A stretch of DNA of 64,000 nt. Origin: Liolophura sinensis (lineage: Eukaryota; Mollusca; Polyplacophora; Chitonida; Chitonidae). Below, piece after piece: positions 26,601 through 62,782 of the stretch. The first letter of the stretch is position 1; every line of letters starts with the position of its first letter. Where the stretch lies: NCBI RefSeq assembly GCF_032854445.1, contig NC_088302.1:17727338-17791337 (forward strand), read 5' to 3'. A program made the position numbers and the translations under genes. The notes under the pieces were generated by a model. It worked only from the letters and a program-made list of their open reading frames with translations. It was not told the origin of the DNA and made no database searches.

Positions 26601-29600
26601 CCAAATCTAAGCCTTAATAGCAAATCAGACCTAAAAATGAACTTTTGGGGGGCAAAGTTTAGGGTTATTTAGGGTAATTAGTTAGACTCCACTGAAGAAT
26701 GTTCCCCCAAATGAATTGCCATTTGTAAGTGTAACTAGGGACAAAACAAAGCCTTGGCTTACATGGCCTCAAAGAGCCTTAGAAATGAGGTGGGCTACAT
26801 GTGCTTGGAGTAATTTAAACTACGAACCTTTGTCTATGCATGTAATTATTCCCAAAGTCCATCTCCGGACATGATTCGGAAATGTCCGGATCATCCTGAC
26901 CTCCGGTCAGCTGACCAAGAATTGGGTGGACACTACAACTTATTTTGCATCTAAGGTAAGCCTTGTCAGTGGTTGTATAGCAAATTCAAGTTTTACAACA
27001 ATTTTAGGGGCCTCCATGGCTCGGCTGGTTAGAGCGCTGGCGCAGCATAATGGCCCAGGAGCCTCTCACAAATGCAGTCACTGTAAGTCCTGCTCATACT
27101 GGCTTCCTCTCTGGCCATAAGTGGGACGGTCTGATAGCATCCTGTGGATGGTTGTGGGTTTCCCCCAGGCTCTGCCCAGTTTCCTTCCACCATAATGTTG
27201 GCCACCGTCATATAGATGAAATATTCTTGAGTACGGCGTAAAACACCTATTAAGTAAATGAATAAATTGTAACAATTTTATGCAAAAATATTATCCGACA
27301 TGGCATTGTTCATTATCCTTTGCAGATCTCAAAAGCCATCATTAAGTATTTCTTGGAGAATCAACAAACGGATGCTGTTAGTGCTAGGAAAATGCAGCTA
27401 AGAGATGCCTTGTCTAACATTGTACAGAGTGTTTTTCCATGTGAGTTTCTGAAGTCCTAAGGTTTGTGTAGAGAATAACTTATTTATTTTTGAGTATCAC
27501 ACAAAATACAAGATAAATATTTGAAATAATTAATTTTAATTGAAAACCTTTGCATAAATTTGACATGATTTTGATAATGAAATTTGATAATGTGATTAAT
27601 GATCTTTGCTGGTCATTGTTTTTATTCTTCTGCCACTAAAGGGCGGGCCTATCTCTGAACGTATTCGCATGAAATCCATGACCTTTTACTGAAATAATTA
27701 TTGGGATTGATAAAAATGCCTCTTGTCTCTTTTTTTTTCAGATTCAGGATTGTACATAGTTGGCTCTTCCTTGAGTGGATTTGGGACAAGGAAAAGTGAC
27801 ATGGATATGTGTTTGATGATATCTCAGAAAAATGTAAGTGTTCTTCATAGAGTGCTGAAGGCTGTTTTACACAAGATGTGATACAACAAGAATCACAACT
27901 GAAAAACACAAGGTCATCTGAATGAATGATTATTTTGTACCACTATAAAGTGCTCTAGTAAGTTTTCCTTGTATAAAAAGCACACTGACTGAGGGTGATG
28001 TTTTGTCATTTATGCTGTGCATATGTTATATGTCATTACCATAGACTATGACCATTACCAGAAATTCCTGATTTCATATCTCTTTTCTGTAGTAGAATCC
28101 ATGTTAAGGTAAAAGGGGCCTGTGTGGCCAAAGGGTAAGCACGCTAACATAGCCTGATAACCAGGAGACTGTCACCAATGTGGTCACTGTGAGTTGAAAT
28201 CCAGCTCGTGCTGGCTCCCTCTGCAGCCGTAAGTGGGATGGTGTGGCACAAACCTGCAGATAGACATGGGTTTCCCTTGGATCTGCCTAGTTTCCTCCCA
28301 CCATAATGCTGGCAGCCCTTGTATAAGTGAAATATTCTTGAGTGTAGTGTCAGACAACAATCAAATAAACTAACAAATGTTAAGATAAATGTTGGAATAC
28401 TTTATGTGTTGAGCAGAAGTTTTGCATTTATGTGTCTCTTACAGGTGAGCTTTTTTTTTTTGTAGCCGTGCCACCAAATCTAAGCCTTAACAGCATTGGT
28501 GAATTAAGTATGCAAAGTGAAAAATATAAAGAGCTGCAAACAACTGTCATTTTGACCAGTAATTTTTTATTTCACCTTCTAAGAGACCCATTTGCCTTAT
28601 ACTTGTAGAATGTACAGAAAAGGGAAGCCATTGACCTGCTATACGCCTTACAGAAATGTTTACGAAAGTGTTGTAAGTAGACCTTTTAGGAGTTATTGTC
28701 CTACTGCTACATGTAACACTGAAGGTGTCAGTCCCTCTCCTGGCTAAGACCTGACATGGTGTTTGTTAAGTAGACCTTGTATGAGTTATTGTCCTACTGC
28801 TACATGTAACACTGAAGCTGTGAATCCCTCTCCTGGCTAAGACCTGACATGATGTCCGTTAAGTCATTGGATCACGTGATGAGCTTTCTAGTCCCTCATC
28901 CGAAATGAGCTATTTGGCATTAGATTTGGTTGGTTATTTGCATTAAGTATTCTCTTGGCATTAGACGTGTCCTTTGTATTAAATGTGCTCTTGGAATTAG
29001 ATGCGCTTTTGGCATTTATAAATGTGCTAATGATATTTTAAACAGAATAAAGATTTTGAATGAACTGTTTTAACTGTACATGTAATTTTCTTTTTTAAAG
29101 AATCCTCTTCATATTTTACTGTAATGTAACCCTGCCTGTCATCATATTAATTTTTGTAATTTTTGCAAATACGTAATAAAAACTTCATAAAAATTTTCAG
29201 CATTTGTTAAAAATCTGGAGGTGATCCCTGCCAGAGTGCCAATCCTGAGGTTCAGAGACAAGATAAGGTACGCTATGGCTTTGCATTTGGCTAGGATGAC
29301 AGTCAAGTATTTCATAGAAGGGGTTCACAGAAGTCATTTTTCCGTGTACTGACCACCACTTTCTGGGCGAAACTGAGTTTTTCTTTCAGCTGAAATTGAT
29401 TTTTTTTGTGTTTCAAAGAACCGTTTGTGATACTAAAGTTGAACATTTTTGTACATTACTATCCTTCAATGATTAAGGTGATTTTCACTGCCTAGATGTG
29501 AACTCCAGCTGACCTCCTGGTTGATACTGCAAACTGATAATCGGCACACACTGCAGTTATTGTTATATGTATTTCAGGATACCAGTCCAGTGAAGTGTAA

Positions 29601-43666: not shown

Positions 43667-46600
43667 TTACCTGTCCAAATAATGAGGATGATATCGTGGA
43701 TGAGATCTAGTGTCCACAAACTCCCCTCTTATCAAGCACTGTATAACCCATTCTGTGGACACAACAGGTACGTTGGCTAGCTCCGACTTAACGATGAAAC
43801 TTTTGGGACACGTACAATCTGTTACGACAACACCCAAGTCTTTATCTGTGCAAAAAACAGAAACACGCACAGCAGTTTATTAGGATATTTCCACAATCTT
43901 TTTGCAAGGTGGCGGGATGAATTCAGTTGGCACTACTACATTAAAACACAGCCTCGCGCTTGCCGAACTTTAGAGAGCATGCCGCGAGGAGGGTGATTAA
44001 TTAGTCTCGCACTGCTCAGCACTAACCAATAGATCGTACGATGGGTGCCACTGACAATGGCACCCAATTGTACAGACAATGCTCACAGGGCTAGAGATTG
44101 CAGTGGAGGCCATTAATCCCAACTACCGTACATGACATAAAATTTTGTCCACGACTAAGTTGCCGTTTTTCCAGATTCTGGGAGCTCTACTGATTTTAGA
44201 AAGGTGCTTTGAGAGGTGTTAGGAAGGCAGGGTGGTATCCTACTGGGTAAATTTTAGCAGCAGAAGTAATATCTCATGACATTTATTTGCCTCCAAAAAT
44301 GCTCTTCTGTGGTCAAATTTTTAGGTCATTTAGGGTAGTGCCAAAGCAGTATATCAGAGGACTGAACTGGAAAACAATTACTCCATAACCATCAATTTCA
44401 AATACATAATTTCATGGAATTCCAAACAATTCCTGTTGTATAGTACCATAATTGGTGAAAAATCAATGAAATGGAAGTAACAACCAACAATAATACACCC
44501 ATTTTGTAGATGACTTGATCTGATTATTGTTGTATGGGTACTAAGTATGACCCCATTTCTAAGATGACGGTTCACTTTGAATCTGAGAGAAATGGGGGAA
44601 ATTGTCTCAACCTCAAAATGTTTACCGTTCTAAACTGTGACCGTTATTAAGAACGGACTGAAAATTTTATGACAAAATTGAAAAGCAGTACTTATATTCT
44701 AAGGTAAGTAATAATACTGGTTAGGACTACTGAAGTCTGAGTTAAGTGCAACACAGCTTTGTAATGTCGTGGTATGGTGTCTAACAGACCAGAGATTAAA
44801 ATACAACCTCCAATGGCGTTTCCAGCAAGATGACATCCATGAATTCTGACTGATTTACAGTTTCTCAGTCAAACTGTTCTTCATTAATTTCTAAACAAGA
44901 TTCTAAAGTTGAAACCAACAAGCAATCAGAATTGGCAGTTCTAAAATCAGCAAAGATGTTTTGTCCTTGGATAATCAGGCACTGACAGAAGGGAATGATG
45001 TGTCCCAATCCAGCTCATGCTCGGTCAGCTACAGCAGCAAATGCTTATCTCCCTCAAGGCAGCCAAGCGGCCCTTGACCAATGCTTATCTCCTTCAGGGT
45101 ATCCAAGCGGCCCTTGACCAATGCTTATCTCCTTCAGGGCAGCCAATTGGCCCTTGACCAATGCTTATCTCCCTCAGGGCAGCCAATCGGCCCTTGACCA
45201 ATGCTTATCTCCCTCAGGGCAGCCAATCGGCCCTTGACCAATGCTTATCTCTCTCAGGGCAGCCAAGCGGCCCTTGACCAATGCTTATCTCCCTCAAGGC
45301 AGCCAAGTGGCCCTTGACTAATGCTTATCTTCCTCAGGGCAACCAAGCGGCCCTTGACCCATACTTATCTCCCTCAGGGCAGCCAATCGGCCCTTGACCA
45401 ATGCTTATCTCCCTCAAGGCAGCCAATCGGCCCTTGATCCATACTTATCTCCTGTCAAGGCAGCCAATCTGGTCTTGACCAATGCTTATCTCCCTCAGGG
45501 CAGCCAATCGGCCCTTGACCAATGCTTATCTCCCTCAAGGCAGCCAATCGGCCCTTGATCCATACTTATCTCGTGTCAAGGCAGCCAATCTGGTCTTGAC
45601 CAATGCTTATCTCCCCTAAAGGCAGCCAATTAGGTCACAAGCTCAACTCTGGCTCTTGTCAATTCTGTTCCTGCTTTAAAAGGATATAGAATCAACGCTG
45701 AATGGCTGACTAGACATAGGGCCTCCTGAGTTAACTCTTGTAGCCTGTGACACATCTGAATAAATGTGCCATACTTTAAATTTCCATTAGGCAAGTCATA
45801 GCCTGTACCTGCCTATCTCTCACATCAGCCAATCAGAATCAATTCTGTATCCCTTTAAGTCAGAAGGATAGTGGGGTAACTTATGCTGCGGTGTGTTTCT
45901 TCAGGTTCTGGCTGGTTCCATCCTCCCACAAACTTGATCAACCACAATCACATAAATGACATATGCACAAATATGGCACAAACTCCAATTTACCCACTCA
46001 TCCATCAACTAAGCTACTGGTGAGAAAAGGTTTGGCACTTACCCACTCATCTATCAACTAAGCTACTGGTGAGAAAAGGTTTGGTACTTACCCACTCAAC
46101 TATCAACTAAACTACCAGTGAGATGAAGGTTTGGTACCTACCCACTCGTCCATCAACTAAGCTACTAGAAAGAAGGAGGTTTGGTACTTACCCACTGGTC
46201 CATCAACTAAGCTACTAGCGAGAAGAAGGTGTGGTACTTAACCACTCATCCATCAGCCAAGCTACTAGTTGGAAGGTTTGGTACTTACCCACTGGTCCAT
46301 CAACTAAGCTACTAGTGAGAAGAAGGTTTGGTACTTACCCACTCATCTATCAACTAAGCTACTGGTGAGAAAATATTTGGTACTTACCCCCTCATCTATC
46401 AACTAAGCTACTTGTGAGAAGAAGGTTTGGTACTTAACCACTCATCCATCAACTAAGCTACTTGTGAGAAGAAGGTTTGGTAATTACCCACTCATCTATC
46501 AACTAATCTACTGGTGAGAAGAAAGTTTGGTACTTACCCACTCATCCATCAACTAAGCTACTAGTGAGAAGAAGGTTTGGTAATTACCCCCTCATCTATC

Positions 46601-49600
46601 AACTAAGCTACTAGTGAGATGAAGGTTTGGTACTTACCCACTCATCCATCAACTAAGCTACTAGTGAGATGAAGGTTTGGTACTTACCCACTCATCCATC
46701 AACTAAGCTACTAGTGAGATGAAGGTTTGGTACTTACCCACTCATCCATCAACTAAGCTACTAGTGAGATGAAGGTTTGGTACTTACCCACTCATCCATC
46801 AACTAAGCTACTAGTGAGAAGAAGGTTTGGTACTTACCCACTCATCCATCAACTAAGCTACTAGTGAGAAGAAGGTTTGGTACTTACCCACTCATCCATC
46901 AACTAAGCTACTAGTGAGAAGAAGGTTTGGTACTTAACCACTCATCCATCAACTAAGCTACTAGTGAGAAGAAGGTTTGGTACTTAACCACTCATCCATC
47001 AACTAAGCTACTAGTGAGAAGAAGGTTTGGTACTTACCCACTCATCCATCAACTAAGCTACTTGTGAGAAGAAGGTTTGGTACTTAACCACTCATCCATC
47101 AACTAAGCTACTGGTGAGAATAGGTTTGGTACTTACCCACTCATCTATCAAATAAGCTACTGGTGAGAAGAAAGTTTGGTACTTACCCACTCATCCATTA
47201 ACTAAGCTACTAGTGAGAAGAAGGTTTGGTACTTACCCACTCATCCATCAACTAAGCTACTAGTGAGATGAAGGTTTGGTACTTACCCACTCATCCATCA
47301 ACTAAGCTACTTGTGAGAAGAAGGTTTGGTACTTAACCACTCATCCATCAACTAAGCTACTAGTGAGAAGAAGGTTTGGTACTTACCCACTCATCCATCA
47401 ACTAAGCTACTAGTGAGAAGAAGGTTTGGTACTTACCCACTCATCCATCAACTAAGCTACTGGTGAGAAGAAAGTTTGGTACTTACCCACTCATCTATCA
47501 ACTAAGCTACTAGCGAGAAGAAGGTGTGGTACTTAACCACTCATCGATCAGCCAAGCTACTAGTTGGAAGGTTTGGTACTTACCCACTCATCCATCAACT
47601 AAGCTACTTGTGAGAAGAAGGTTTGGTACTTACCGACAGTGACCTCCGTCGAGAGCTGTGACGTGACGACACAGCCAGCAGTCTGCAGAATAGAGACCCA
47701 GGCATCCCGGAAATCAGCTGACAACGACACAACGCTCACAGCCAGTCCTGCCAGAGCATTCCTCTTACTGCTGTTAAAAAACAATTCACAAGACTGTCAG
47801 CCACAGGAAAATATATGTAGTTGATGTATATTATGTCCCTTGTGGGACTGATCGGGAGAAATTTTGATCGGCGTCCTATACTCACATTACATCACTGAAA
47901 TTTGCAACAATTTCAAGTTGAGGTGCAAGGGATGAGATTGATGTCAGAAAATCTAAAACCTATTCTTAAACCTTTTTTCTCTTACTAAATAAATCTCTGA
48001 GTCTTTTCAACCAAATTATGCACATCGTTATTGCAGCAGACAATGTCCTACACCTTTTTTATCCTTCCAGTGAAAGAAAACGTTTCTCAAACACTTTCAG
48101 GGGCCTACTTTCCTCTGTTTTCCAGCACTTTCTTGAGCTTTTCAGCTGAAGTCCAAACATTCATGTGAAGAATAATGGATAATGTTTAGGTAGCTTCCCT
48201 ACTGGTTTCCTTCCATCATAATGCTGGCTGTTGCCATGTATGTTAAATGTTATTGAGTAGGTTGTAAAACAAAAATCAAAACAATAAATAAATCTTCATT
48301 CGTCTATATCTAACATAAGGCAACATGATCATTAATTTTGAAAAATCAAATATTTTTCAAGGTCATATCCCAAATTTACTGTAAATCTTCAACCTTTTCA
48401 ACGCATGCAATTATTATTAAAATGACGCCAGAAATGATTTGTGTCACTAAAGATGCCTGCTTTTTAAAACTGTGCAAATTGTTTCTGTACACCCCATAGT
48501 TCTCTCAGAATGTTTCACAAAATTGGTGTCATATGCGGTTTAAAAGGTTGAAGAATTAGGGTAAAATTTTTTCAAGTTCTTTTAAGGTCTGAAAACCTCT
48601 TAAAGAAAGAAACAATGAGAACCCTGGTTTACACACGATCTGCACATGGAACAGATTCGGTGGCTAAACCTTGTAGTTAATGTTGTGTCCACAATTCGAT
48701 CGGGTTTATATGCGTGAAAATTCAAGAACGATAACTTGCTACTTTTAGTCTCTTTTGAAATAAGAAGTCTGAAGTACTCAAACCTACTTTAAATTAGAAA
48801 TACTTCATCCCCATATGAGCCTGCATACCAAATTTTGAATCCTTGTGTGTAACCGAATGATATTCATTGTGTTCACATTGCTGAAAATCAATATTTTCAT
48901 TAACAAGAATAAATACCATTGAAAAAGAATGATTCAATTATCTTACCACTCCATTATTTTCCTGGTTTCTATGTTTAGTCCTGCTGGTAATATGTAAGAG
49001 AGTGGATCCAGTAGCCTCCCCTGAATGACAAAAGCATCCTGAATATCAGTGGTGAACAACGACAAATGACAGAAGCCAAAACATTTATGCATTAAATTTG
49101 TAATAAACACCAGCTTTCCAAAATGACCACTGAACGGAATGTCTGGATATCCTTCTCACATCTCCTGTTGCCTACATTTTCTTGAACTGACTCAATTGTT
49201 ATTAGAACACCTTTGCCTGTTGATAAAACTTCTCAAATATTGACGTTATTACTTCACCTAATGATAGAATTTCGTTGATCAAGAGAAGCGCCTCACCTGT
49301 TTGCAGGAGTCTCTGATCCAGACATGTGATACGCAGGTGACTCCAGCCGCCAGACATAGGAAGTATTTCACAGTTCTCTGGTAACTGTCTGACACCAGAT
49401 AACAAACCTGAGCCCTGGTCACCTACACAGTCAGGTAAAAAAAATGCCGTTAGCAAAAGCTAATATCATGGAAAAAGAAATCGTCACCTGTTCTACACTT
49501 ATATGAATGACATATGAGGACAAGAAAATATGTAGATCGAGCAAAGACTTGAAATTCAGCGAGGTTAAACAACAGTATTTTGATATTCACAACATCTGGA

Positions 49601-50780
49601 TATCTTCAGTGATGACCAAATTTAGCGCCTTTCTCGGAGTGACCTACAGAATCTGCCATGTGTACCAGAAGTTAATAAGTGGGTGACCATTGGATGTATT
49701 CATGCAGAAAAGGTTTTATGCCACATCCTAATTATGACTACTGCTTACCAAGCTTGGAGGTCAATGAAATTAAAATAAATTTCCATACCATATATAAGAA
49801 TTAAAAATTTTATTAATAAACTAGGGAGAGTGCTTGTTTTTCCACAAATCGTGACATATATAATTACTTCATAAATAATGGAGAAGATGTTAGAATAAGG
49901 ACAAACAAAAAATAATAATAAAAAATATTAACTTCATGCAAGCTTTATAAAAACACTACAATAACACACTGATGGAGAATTTTTTCTTTACTTCTCAATA
50001 AGGTGTTTTGAGTTTTTGTTTCTTGTTTTTTTTTTTTTTCCAACAAAGCCCAGGCAACAGACTTGCTTCAGCCTACCTGGTTCAAGTCAAACTTGTCCAG
50101 AATGACTCCACCACCTGCTGTTATTTGAGCTTTCAAATGTTCTTTATCAAACGGTACAACCACCTCATCTGTGAATAAACAACAATAACATCATCATCAG
50201 AGATTCTGTAATATTTATACAACAATAACAACATATCACAATGAGTTGAGATATCAAATTACGCTTGAAAATAACCCCTCTCATCTCTGCTCCAGTCTTA
50301 CTTTGAATCTCTTTGATTTCATTTCATTTGATATTTTAAAAGAGGCCTTTAGAAGGCCACAAGACACATGACAACCTCAACTAATTTATTTAGCTTATTA
50401 GTTTCATCAACTTGTTGACTTAGCTTACTAGTCTCATCAACTTGTTGACTTAGCTTACTAGTTTCATCAACTTGTTGACTTAGCTTACTAGTCTCATCAA
50501 CTTGTTGACTTAGCTTACTAGTTTCATCAACTTGTTGACTTAGCTTACTAGTCTCATCAATTTGTTGATTTAGCTTATTAGTTTCATCAACTTGTTGACT
50601 TAGCTTACTAGTCTCATCAACTTGTTGACTTAGCTTACTAGTTTCATCAACTTGTTGACTTAGCTTACTAGTCTCATCAATTTGTTGATTTAGCTTATTA
50701 GTTTCATCAACTTGTTGACTTAGCTTACTAGTTTCACTATTTTACCATCCACAAAGACAGTTTTACTGTACACTTTATCC

Positions 50781-59800: not shown

Positions 59801-62782
59801 GCTAAATTTTATGATTGATAGCAACCATTTTAGAGCCTGAAATGCAGTACCACTCTGTGCAAATACAACTGAAGCAGCTAATTCTGACAAAATAACATGT
59901 CTTTATTTGCTCTTATTCACGCTGACATATAGCACATACAAATAATGTTTTCAGAGATTTTCTTTTCATCTTCACACACTGTTCATTTTGTTTACCTTAA
60001 CAAAATAGTAGAAATGTATAATAAGAGCTTTGCTTCAATAGATTTCTTGCTTTACACTCTTTTTGTGCAAATGAATAAATTTCTAAATTCTGATCTGAAT
60101 GGAATTTCTTATGCTTCTGCTGATTTGACACTTTTACATCACAAATAAGCGCCACAGCTAGACCTTACCATTGACCAATCAAACGTGCATAATGCGGGGA
60201 CAACTACAAACTATGAAAGTGTCACCTCCACACACTTAACAGCGTTTTAACTGTTTTCTTTTTAACTGAATAAATAAAACACTGCATGCTAGTACTATAA
60301 TTCCTGGAAGTCAAAACACCATCTCTTTTGAATACATAATGAACCAATTTTGTGAAAAGCCTCAGTCACATGTTTAAATGTGCAATGGCTACGTAACAGA
60401 AACTGGACCATGTATAAAGCTGCGATGGCCATTCGTCTGGAAAAAGTTGTTTTAGAAAGGTTGGCTCTATGAATTCCGTTTTCTTGCGTTTTTTTTTAAC
60501 CTTCAGTTATCAGCAAGTAAACTGAGTTATTTCTGTCGTCTTTATTTTTTTACTGAAAATATTCATATTTCGACGCCAAAATTGATATCAATTCGTAAAA
60601 TCGACGTGTACGAATCCATGCAAGCCTTTCATATATTCTTTAAACAGGTGAATGTTTATTTTTTGGAGTTAGGGGTCACAACCTTACCTGTGAAGGACGA
60701 GCAGCAGCGTCTGTGGATGTGGAGGGAGCTGGCTCTTCCACCTCAACCCCAGGCTCTTCTGTCTTACCCGCTAAGCTTAACCGTACCTTCTTCTTCTCCT
60801 TCTTCTCCTGCAGTCGGCGTGTGCGGGGGTTGCGCCGCACAGTAGCAGTCTGGTTTTCAAATCTTCCACTATGTTCTCTGGCAGGGGTTTTATCGGCTTC
60901 TTCACTGCTGCTAAGGCTAGCTCCAGGAGGCACCTCAGACCTCACACTCGCGCCACGTACCCTAGTCTGATGAGAAGAGCTTACTGCCTTCTTCCGCTTT
61001 CTCTTACCGCTGCTTTCCTTGAAAGTAGATTTGGGCATCAGTACTGGAGTCTGCAAAGCAAGGACATGATACGATGAAACACACTGTCCTGAGTTAAACT
61101 CATCTGAATTGAACTCGCGTTCTCTGTGGTTGTATCTCCCGCAAGGCACGGCAGACGCGGAAACGCAACCACACAGAATCAGAAGATAAAGCTTTTGGTG
61201 CAGTGGCTCATTAAAGAGTCCATTTTTAACTTTAATATAGGATAATGTGTAAAGATCAGCTAGGACCAATTAGAGCTTTCTTTCAGAATCAACTTCTATA
61301 TCCAAGTATTTGTCAATTATCAGGATGTTAATGATAGACTGATACACTACCAGTAGTATACATTATGAGCATAACATGTGTCCAAATTAGGCAGTGTAGT
61401 GCACTGTTACAGAGACCATTTCTGTGATGTGATTCGTCAAAAATAAAGACAAAAATTCATTTTAATATGATTTGTATCCCCAGAAAGAAACTAAATGATT
61501 TGCTCACACATTTACATTTTTTTGAATTTTGAGAGTTGGTGCAACAGATTTACACATTAGACAACTCATAAGCCTTTCACAACCTGGTTTAAAACTGTCA
61601 TAGTAAAAACTACAACACATGGGTTTAAAGACGTACAGTGTTAGGATCTTTGATAGGCCCTCCTACAGCTTGTGATTGGGTACTGTGGAAGTCATACAGG
61701 TCAGTTGACTTGGGTGACTGTTTTGATTGGTGTTTGGCTGAAGACTGACTTTGAGTAACCACTGGGCTGTCAGTGTGAGAAGGCACAACAGTTGCCTTTC
61801 CTACTGGCTGTTTTGATTGGTATTTAGCTGAAGGCTGACTTTGATTACAAGAAGTGTGAGAAGATTCTTGAGTTGCCTCCCCTCTTGGATTCACTTTAAT
61901 TCCTGTGTATGTTTCAACATCATACACAATGGTTTCTTGCTCGCCATCATCGTCAACTTTATTCTTGTCACAAGTAGTGTGCTCCGACAGGCAGATGGAC
62001 GCCTCAGCAGATTTGTCCTGTTCCTTAAAAGACAGACTTTCTGGAGGGATTGTCACATCTAGATCTTCTTCCACCTGTCAATCAAACAATCAAAGAAAAG
62101 GAACATTACAAGCATCAGTGAAAACTGATGTACACAGCTTATTTTGCTTCTTAATTGTTTTCTAACCCGAAAATTCATTGATTTATTTAAATTTTCACAT
62201 CCATATGGGCTGGTATCCTTGTGAAATGTTAAACAAGGCCAAATTCACTCTAGATGTGACAGCCCATGTTGCCTTGCAGTCAGGTCCCTTGCTGCATGAA
62301 TGGCCTGTATCAAAAGATAGGATATTAAAAATCTGACTGATCAACCAAGAGTCAGGACAACAAATACACCTGCTTGTCGCAGTTAAAATCTGTCAATTAC
62401 CTGCTCTACCACAGCTTCGTCCTTTGGATTATCTCCGCTCTGCTGTTGACTGGAGGTTATCTTCTGATGTGACTTTTCCAATGTAATCTTTTGATAACCT
62501 CTTTGTACAGCCTCACTTGAACCTCCTTCTACAGCCTCATGTGAACCCTCTTCTACAACCTCATGTGAACCTTCTTCCACAGATTCATGTGGGCCCCCTT
62601 CCAAATCCTCGTGTGAACCCACTGGTCTTTCTTCAGCTATGTGTAAGCCTCCTTTCACACTGTAATCCGTGGCTTTGATGCCTTTCTCAACCTTCTGTGA
62701 CACAGCCTGCCTCTTTGGTTTTGGAGGTTTGTCCTGACTTCTTGGTGTAAACGAAAATGGGTCATCCTCCTCATCCTCTGTG
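43667..62782 (-). CDS. TP53BP1: TP53BP1 (53BP1), C-terminal part, 18 exons; 5' end outside window
   Basis: 53BP1 is the nuclear chromatin reader that binds H4K20me2 and H2AK15ub nucleosomes at DNA breaks and steers repair to end-joining. Exons in transcript order: 62782-62401, 62074-61637, 61050-60688, 58918-58757, 58331-57548, 56481-56385, 55788-55691, 55010-54935, 54438-54238, 53984-53866, 52377-52135, 51793-51710, 51041-50874, 50168-50077, 49422-49297, 49020-48947, 47770-47634, 43845-43667. They give about 1273 residues in one phase-consistent frame (human protein 1972). Seen: acidic SHE-repeat region, KDGKVVFCETREENEEPVVEW and SGDLGDVSS (oligomerisation region), Tudor segment, DNLVEGKR, BRCT 1 (SHVWIRDSC), BRCT 2 (PVVSTEWVIQCLIRGEF) and the end HPHYLDR. 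No RG-repeat (GAR) motif was found in these exons. The donor of the 52377 exon could instead be at 52120. Confidence 0.95.
44128..44340. repeat. Dispersed repeat R3 copy
   Basis: ACATAAAATTTTGTCCACGACT, GAGCTCTACTGATTTTAGAAAG, TATCCTACTGGG and AATATCTCATGACATTTATTTGCC parallel the copy at 42255. It lies in the last TP53BP1 intron. Confidence 0.75.
45041..45640. repeat. 40-bp minisatellite, about 15 copies
   Basis: The unit is ATGCTTATCTCCCTCAGGGC followed by AGCCAATCGGCCCTTGACCA. It recurs at 45041, 45081, 45121 and so on, with small length changes after 45441. On the minus strand each unit shows AGATAAGCAT, a GATA-factor consensus (WGATAR). It lies in the last TP53BP1 intron, downstream of the 50-bp array in the transcript. 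Confidence 0.93.
45990..47636 (-). repeat. 50-bp minisatellite carrying the TP53BP1 5' splice site, about 33 copies
   Basis: The unit in transcript sense is GTAAGTACCAAACCTTCTTC, TCACTAGTAGCTTAGTTGAT, GGATGAGTGG (50 bp). The first unit begins exactly at the exon end (47634), so its GTAAGTACC is the functional donor. Most later units keep GGGTAAGTACC, a strong U2-type donor match, while a minority read GGTTAAGTACC and have lost it. The sequence after the true donor contains an in-frame TAG within the first unit, so splicing at any later copy would create a premature stop. Confidence 0.93.
48190..48292 (+). mobile_element. SINE family A, degenerate 3' part
   Basis: CTACTGGTTTCCTTCCATCATAATGCTGGC followed by TATTGAGTAGGTTGTAAAAC and CAATAAATAAAT are the worn 3' end of family A. 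Confidence 0.65.
48377..48566. mobile_element. MITE-like element, family M1
   Basis: TTACTGTAAATCTTCAACCTTTT at the left and AAAAGGTTGAAGAATTAGGGTAA at the right form inverted termini. The interior is diverged from the other M1 copies. It is in a TP53BP1 intron. Confidence 0.7.
50386..50735. repeat. 30-bp minisatellite, about 12 copies
   Basis: The unit GTTTCATCAACTTGTTGACTTAGCTTACTA alternates with a GTCTC variant. A further TTTGTTGATT variant recurs every 120 bp (50561, 50681), so there is a higher-order structure. It lies in the TP53BP1 intron between 50169 and 50873. Confidence 0.93.
50784..50824. repeat. (TA)n microsatellite
   Basis: About 20 uninterrupted TA dinucleotides lie 50 bp on the intron side of the TP53BP1 exon at 51041-50874. 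Confidence 0.95.
51205..51420. repeat. 102-bp tandem duplication
   Basis: CATCTTCCCTACAACCTG recurs at 51211 and 51313, with the whole intervening text duplicated nearly perfectly and a third partial start (ACATGTACATCTTC) at about 51410. It is in a TP53BP1 intron. Confidence 0.88.
52135..52377 (-). other. TP53BP1: TP53BP1 ubiquitin-reader motif and K/S-rich linker exon
   Basis: The exon junction restores SLDNLVEGKR, identical to the core of the human ubiquitination-dependent recruitment motif that reads H2AK15ub. It is followed by HSRRAPAP and then a low-complexity run of KSAAKSSKS-type repeats encoded by 21-24-bp tandem repeats. VKRKLSAFEPSQ could serve as a nuclear localisation signal. 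The donor at 52134 (GTGCTTG) is weak; an in-frame alternative (GTATTTTG at 52119) would add five residues. Confidence 0.8.
52665..52815 (-). mobile_element. SINE family A, tail and body
   Basis: TTTGATTGGCGTTTTACGCCG, GGTGGGAGGAAACCGGGCAGAGCCC and GACCTTCCCACGTACGG are close to the apparent consensus. The head is missing. Confidence 0.82.
52920..53115 (-). mobile_element. SINE-like family C copy
   Basis: GGCTGAAACCAGAGTACCTG, CAATGACAGACTTTCCTACGTG, GCCATATTGGTGGAAGG and ACTTGAACTTCAGCCAGC follow the same order as the copy at 39640-39850. Confidence 0.6.
53745..53852 (-). mobile_element. SINE family A, internally deleted
   Basis: TTTATTTATTTACGAGTTTTACGTCGTA joins directly to CAGGTACAACTGGAGAGGACGTCAGCATGAGCTGGACTTGA; the central body is missing. 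It ends 14 bp from the donor of the TP53BP1 exon 53984-53866. Confidence 0.75.
53866..55010 (-). other. TP53BP1: TP53BP1 tandem Tudor exons
   Basis: Exons 55010-54935, 54438-54238 and 53984-53866 encode the methyl-lysine reader. ALVIAKWRDGYYYPG matches human LRVVAKWSSNGYFYSG, including cage residues W1495 and Y1502. CLVDFADGDHLAVRLGDVI matches human KLLFDDGYECDVLGKDI, keeping F1519 and D1521, but human cage Tyr1523 is Asp here. The second Tudor fold follows (VLVESSDGGYDPGLVIGYYGRG) and then RYMRSKVILSADQ, matching human KRMAVILSLEQ. Confidence 0.88.
55509..55552. mobile_element. MITE family M1, one terminus only
   Basis: CCTACTGTAATTCTTCAACC followed by TTTCCACATGC matches the M1 terminus well. 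No matching right end follows. Confidence 0.5.
56570..56680 (-). mobile_element. SINE-like family C fragment
   Basis: TTTCACTTATACAAAGGCAGTCAGGTTCA and GCACTCAGAGTAAACCACTGA match the tail-side half of family C. Confidence 0.5.
58919..60687 (-). other. TP53BP1: TP53BP1 intron without recognisable genes
   Basis: This intron lies between exons 61050-60688 and 58918-58757. It is AT-rich and contains no repeat family described elsewhere in the window. The open frames at 59298-59591 and 59945-60148 are low-complexity and show no domain. Confidence 0.7.

Follow-up and report, generated by a model that had tools for sequence, protein, structure and literature searches.

Tandem copies of the splice donor of the last TP53BP1 intron in a chiton are probably a neutral counterpart of the amphioxus mirages

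A minisatellite with a short, 12-bp unit lies in human IFI6 (6-16). It reportedly has multiple splice donors, as the title of a 1995 paper by Turri has it. In the available part of a separate report, two downstream repeat units of IFI6 serve as donors (PMC4526556). The accessible text on amphioxus describes mirages, which are tandem repeats that lie over exon-intron boundaries in Adh3 and in the globin genes BflGb6 and BflGb9, are unstable in length and leave regular splicing undisturbed (PMC3087553). TnC is another gene with a mirage, and the units measure 10-72 bp in Adh3 and 150-160 bp in BflGb6 (PMC3087553, PMC3902484); in lancelet PGBD5 the repeats directly abut the 5' splice site, again with regular splicing undisturbed (PMC3902484). 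A study of variable internal tandem repeats in duplicated human genes reports, in its available part, minisatellites that alter gene structure, some of them at an exon-intron boundary with cryptic splice sites; about half of the repeats are within coding sequence, and novel introns may arise from them (PMC2812944). Earthworm metallothionein introns contain minisatellites, and copies of the donor are not described in the available passages (PMC12783039). Among the titles, opening lines of abstracts and passages listed in searches of one open-access library, we found no report of donor-copying boundary minisatellites in a mollusc. Here we describe a 50-bp tandem array at the start of the last TP53BP1 intron in a 64,000-nt stretch of the genome of the chiton Liolophura sinensis (NC_088302.1, positions 17,727,338 to 17,791,337; hereafter the window). 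The array is most likely a neutral mirage: an intronic minisatellite of which the first repeated segment started at the splice donor.

The original prediction assigned this array to the last intron of TP53BP1, and both parts of the assignment hold. When 47634 is joined to 43845, the junction reads V-D-K-D and BRCT2 stays open to the stop, with a protein end of ...HPHYLDR. The joined exons encode 102 residues. Three PDB entries match them at E <= 0.001, all of them 53BP1 (1gzh, 1kzy and 5ecg; E-values of 4e-15 to 5e-15, with 4.3e-15 for 1gzh), and Pfam BRCT_3 matches at E 2.5e-24. The restored BRCT2 matches human 53BP1. The intron covers 47633-43846 (3,788 bp) and is directly followed by the terminal BRCT exon, which runs to the stop. 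Feature coordinates are collected in Table 1; a slash marks a boundary in sequence text.

Tandem Repeats Finder (TRF) reports a period of 50 bp and 33.1 copies, in line with the predicted number of about 33. A mirage is a tandem repeat that spans or abuts an exon-intron boundary and carries the splice signal in many of its units, though not in all. The first base of the array is the last exonic base, G 47634, and the donor GT lies at 47633-47632, so the functional donor is inside the array, as had been proposed. On the minus strand the junction reads ...GGAGGTCACTGTCG/GTAAGTACCAAACC... Judged by eye, the exon tail CTCGACGGAGGTCACTGTCG resembles the tail of the unit only in its final few bases, which places the array start at most about 3 nt from the boundary. 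When the array is cut into 33 units, GT is present at the donor place in 26. GGTAAGT occurs in 23 units, including the true donor, and GTAAGT in 22 of the 32 downstream units; the remaining GT-bearing variants are GTAATT (two units) and GTAGGT (one). The other 7 of the 33 units read GGTTAAGT and have lost the +1 G. Thus the predicted ladder of near-identical donors is present, and its splice signal is kept by many units, not by all. The word GGGTAAGTACC is found 21 times in the array.

The far edge of the array also ends in GGTAA (GTGGGTAA/ATTGG), which puts a GGTAA word at both edges. Identity between units does not drop steadily as the lag between them grows (lag 1, 0.915; lag 20, 0.883; lag 26, 0.917). 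In the one haplotype examined, units 2 and 3 recur as units 28 and 29, 26 units away, at 98% and 94% identity, a pattern that would be consistent with turnover through block copying. Tandem arrays, mainly this one and a 40-bp array, make up 2,235 of the 3,788 bases of the intron.

What would follow from the use of a repeat donor was computed for units 2 to 6. Choosing donor 2 would extend the exon by 50 nt and bring in an in-frame TAG that ends 15 nt before the junction, and all five units examined meet a TAG, as originally claimed for any donor other than the first. Under the vertebrate rule, nonsense-mediated decay (NMD) acts on stops more than 50-55 nt upstream of a junction. Because its TAG is only 15 nt away, the donor-2 transcript should escape NMD and give a truncated protein. 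For unit 3 the distance is 62 nt, but GT is lost and there is no donor. For units 4, 5 and 6 the TAG lies 112, 162 and 212 nt from the junction; these distances exceed 50-55 nt, and the transcripts would therefore be NMD substrates. The proposal that downstream choices create NMD targets thus stands for units 4 to 6 and falls for donor 2. For 53BP1 to be produced from this gene, a strong preference for the first donor is needed, which the original prediction offered as one of its options.

Donor strength was scored with a model built from 48 chiton donors that had themselves been picked by a score cut-off. When every unit is scored, as the original prediction proposed, the first donor and the usual copy both reach 4.19, and a single copy (unit 26) scores higher. 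The true donor lies near the bottom of the 48 chiton donors, a set pre-selected by score cut-off, with one below it. The predicted energy of the duplex with U1 is -11.7 kcal/mol for the usual copy and -10.7 kcal/mol for the true donor, which agrees with the claim that the repeat donors pair well with U1. Modeled strength thus fails to set the first donor apart, and it does not explain first-donor choice, since the usual copy equals the true donor in score and pairs slightly better with U1.

Predicted accessibility does differ. At 20 C, the predicted opening energy of donor 1 is 3.89 kcal/mol, compared to a median of 6.43 kcal/mol for the 32 copies (range 5.25-10.03); the median of 106 other chiton donors is 4.36 kcal/mol. 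In our reading of the predicted folds, GGUAAGUACC is able to pair with its own copy in the neighboring unit.

Column diversity across the units shows no sign of selection for or against the repeat donors. The nine donor columns have a mean diversity of 0.075, versus 0.076 for the other 41, and the donor window ranks 21 among 50 rotations. Only two columns vary more than that of the +1 G, but the donor window is average overall.

These observations suggest how a neutral mirage might have formed. Tandem duplication would have begun by slippage, or by unequal exchange, between two GGTAA words some 50 bp from each other, and the array would have grown through subsequent turnover. Growth would have gone into the intron only, because the exon is under selection and cannot be invaded. 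Splicing would use the first donor by virtue of its exon-proximal position, and the copies would leave with the intron. Self-pairing of the RNA among copies may aid the first donor in the TP53BP1 array, since that donor is predicted to be easier to open.

Donor copies of this kind also occur at other genes of this repeat-rich genome, and the structure thus does not appear to be a unique device. Minisatellites occupy 10.2% of the window (arrays of period 10 or more) and 11.0% of bases +6 to +400 in 106 sampled introns. The sampled donors come from two surveys, of myosin and kinesin, and matches to TCP-1 were left aside. For the myosin head, the best 60 of 81 matches were fetched, of which 48 donors were kept and 12 dropped for an unclear donor. 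For kinesin, 80 of 132 matches were fetched, hand-chosen for lack of internal stops in roughly list order (at least one, C3:22661996, was overlooked), and 58 donors were kept and 22 dropped. In the set test, the 30 bases around each donor were compared without gaps to the next 400 bases, with cross-intron pairs and a control point at +60 as nulls. The donor picker took the second copy at one kinesin locus (L132), and other donors may be misplaced too.

At a threshold of at least 26 of 30 matching bases, 3 of the 106 donors recurred (L049, L076 and L081), compared to 1 of 848 cross-intron pairs and 4 of 106 control points. At 24 or more of 30 the count was 4 of 106 for donors and 7 of 106 for the +60 control (Fisher P = 0.54), which argues that arrays are not attracted to donors. 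The frequency at which arrays include donors is similar to, or below, that for other intron positions. With one further case found by inspection (L134), clear donor copies number 4 of 106 (95% interval 1.0-9.4%; three from the set test), and L132 is a degenerate fifth.

The individual loci vary in what they repeat. At L049 (reverse complement, donor base 589), a myosin exon tail plus CAG/GTATGT recurs about eight times at 66 bp and then at 25 bp, and 10 of the 11 donor words listed are identical to the true donor. L076 (donor base 577) repeats a 115-bp myosin exon tail plus 9 intron bases in 6.3 copies at 97%; its downstream copies resemble pseudo-exons with intact donors. At L134 (reverse complement, donor base 105), six more copies of a 38-bp kinesin exon tail and the adjoining GTAA run to the locus end; they read GTAATG versus GTAAGA at the true donor. 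At L132 (reverse complement, about 128-190), CAG/GTAAAA, CAG/GTGAGA and CAG/GTATGA stand about 30 bp apart; the first of them looks, by eye, consistent with the kinesin frame.

A general attraction of minisatellites to donor motifs was considered and rejected. GGTAAGT triples gave 871 and 1072 matches, and the reversed word gave 1303 and 1482. At the level of arrays, the first 4.12 Mb of contig C1, the stretch covered for both words, held 10 GGTAAGT arrays and 8 control arrays of the reversed word. Among 21 GGTAAGT arrays that were fetched, the 5' edge is spread over the unit; the phase is known in 17, and it is 0 in two (L009 and L017). Because GGTAAGT arrays seldom start at the word, general anchoring does not explain the exact donor edge at TP53BP1. 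One of the two, L017:1454-2056, is a 43 bp x 14 array; the open frame just before its edge ends in FYVPAIILL and has no Pfam hit. L017 is probably another donor-anchored array.

Several results weigh against the neutral mirage and the place it gives to the first donor. All set-test cases at 21 or more of 30 are from the myosin set, and those at 26 or more comprise 3 of 48 myosin donors versus 0 of 58 kinesin donors. The ungapped set test missed the kinesin case L134, which TRF and inspection by eye brought out and which has no null of its own. Close recurrence in the myosin set (at least 28 of 35) was seen at 2 of 48 donors versus 35 of 240 interior points, which are several per intron and non-independent. 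Only 3 of 17 GGTAAGT arrays have an edge within 4 bp of the word, where a hand count expects about 4, and the L023 array runs off its locus. A predicted fold of six units is not stabler than tiled shuffles, as 74 of 100 shuffles fold as low or lower; the array's RNA structure therefore seems to be a by-product. Among five other arrays, a gain in predicted accessibility of the first donor is clear at L134, slight at L081 and absent at L049, L076 and L017. Use of the first donor at TP53BP1 is itself something that we infer from the protein match. Hiding of the copies by RNA structure was also tried as a general rule and rejected: it fits the 53BP1 array and L134, and fails at L049, L076 and L017.

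The original prediction raised the idea of the ladder as a special device, which loses ground to the missing +1 G in 7 of 33 units, to a donor diversity (0.075 versus 0.076) no lower than that of the rest of the unit and to similar arrays at 4 of 106 other donors. In one such reading, some transcripts use repeat donors to make truncated or NMD-sensitive 53BP1, and array length tunes 53BP1 dose as a splicing rheostat. We regard this as improbable. Such a rheostat would draw on the 22 of 32 downstream units with GTAAGT, on the 1 kcal/mol advantage of the usual copy over the true donor in U1 pairing and on the range of products, namely a truncated protein that escapes NMD from donor 2 and NMD substrates from units 4 to 6; against this, the donor columns lack constraint, GT is lost in some units, similar ladders stand in myosin and kinesin genes and the copies are predicted to be harder to open. 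It is also quite improbable that the success of the first donor depends on how many donors are intact, with array length, which would be expected to differ between animals, tuning full-length versus truncated 53BP1 and other chiton ladders behaving likewise. The strong predicted U1 pairing of most units would speak for a role in which the array holds U1 small nuclear ribonucleoprotein and shields the last intron from premature polyadenylation (a U1 sink, or telescripting). However, the 3,788-bp intron has only two AATAAA/ATTAAA words, at 44287 and 43881, both more than 1.7 kb beyond the array, and the donor columns are again free of constraint, which makes this role very unlikely.

GT donors at a regular spacing could also recall recursive splicing, with the units as ratchet points for stepwise removal of the intron. 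Ratchet points require AG/GT, but the donor place is preceded by GG in 32 units and by CG in the first, with AG/GT in none, and we consider this reading exceedingly unlikely. The array could instead be an artefact of assembly or collapse, given a HiFi coverage of only 14x in the accessible part of the genome report; the mean HiFi read stated there, 8,347 bp, exceeds the 1,645-bp array (PMC11068029), and the units differ among themselves at 91% matches, so an artefact is very improbable. A neutral mirage remains the reading that we favor.

Near-identical donors that compete at a fixed spacing, at about 4% of sampled chiton donors (4/106), are of greater interest than the single TP53BP1 locus. 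If this share is general, the genome may hold thousands of such ladders. Because most copies score equal to the true donor, these ladders separate position from strength, and a first-donor rule would be measurable in ordinary RNA-seq. The TP53BP1 array is in this sense a natural experiment on donor choice. Donor ladders also bear on the lengthening of introns and on the origin of new introns.

Table 1. Positions of the TP53BP1 array, its flanking exons and other repeats in the window
Feature	Position in window	Strand	Details
Minisatellite array	45990-47634	minus-strand gene	50 bp x 33.1 copies; TRF, 91% matches; array 1,645 bp
Penultimate TP53BP1 exon, first half of BRCT2	47634-47771	minus	5' end approximate, acceptor near 47771-47769; open frame SKRNALAGLAVSVV...STEVTV
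Authentic 5' splice site	47632-47633	minus	TCG/GTAAGT; joining to 43845 restores BRCT2
Last TP53BP1 exon, BRCT2 end and stop	43668-43845	minus	acceptor TTTTTTGCACAG/ATAAAGAC
Second minisatellite, same intron	45040-45630		40 bp x 14.7; TRF
Second donor-anchored repeat	28674-28864	plus	93 bp x 2.1; TRF; start at most 1 base from GTAAGT (28673)

The window contains further repeats near coding sequence. The second donor-anchored repeat follows a probable exon on the plus strand (about 28609-28672), for which an open frame and splice signals speak, with a 21-residue piece that has no Pfam hit. Within the span of TP53BP1, a 30-bp repeat at 50349-50741 is open on the minus strand as SQQVDETSKL-like repeats and is either coding or intronic. 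A 24/48-bp repeat at 62496-62619, toward the N-terminal side of TP53BP1, lies inside a minus-strand open frame (GSHEAVEE-like) and is possibly a coding minisatellite.

At the level of the genome, the accessible part of the repeat table published for this genome under the name L. japonica gives 0.08% for the class with simple repeats and 14.04% for unclassified repeats (PMC11068029). Given the minisatellite coverage of about 10% in the window, minisatellites may be hidden in that unclassified share. COX1 is present seven times on contig C99 at intervals of about 15.5 kb, with one of the matches partial, and there is one more on C632. The C99 series resembles a mitochondrial concatemer, joined head to tail, within the assembly. 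The mitochondrial COX1 reads well under the invertebrate code, and AAA codons at its conserved lysines exclude the echinoderm code. A search for the GFP family had no hit here, nor in any control genome.

Compared to the systems described so far, in the parts of those reports that are available, the TP53BP1 array shares with the IFI6 minisatellite the repetition of a donor at the end of an exon. Downstream units are used at IFI6, whereas at TP53BP1 an extension to any of units 2 to 6 would run into a stop. Unlike the repeats of duplicated human genes, about half of which are coding, the TP53BP1 array is intronic. The closest likeness is to the amphioxus mirages: the array is minisatellite-like, abuts the exon-intron boundary and copies the splice signal. 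It differs from them in being molluscan, in its roughly 33 copies and in a unit with at most 1-3 exonic bases; normal splicing was reported for amphioxus, and here it is predicted from the protein match. By this analogy, the TP53BP1 array is most likely of the same kind as the amphioxus mirages, which would extend the phenomenon to a mollusc.

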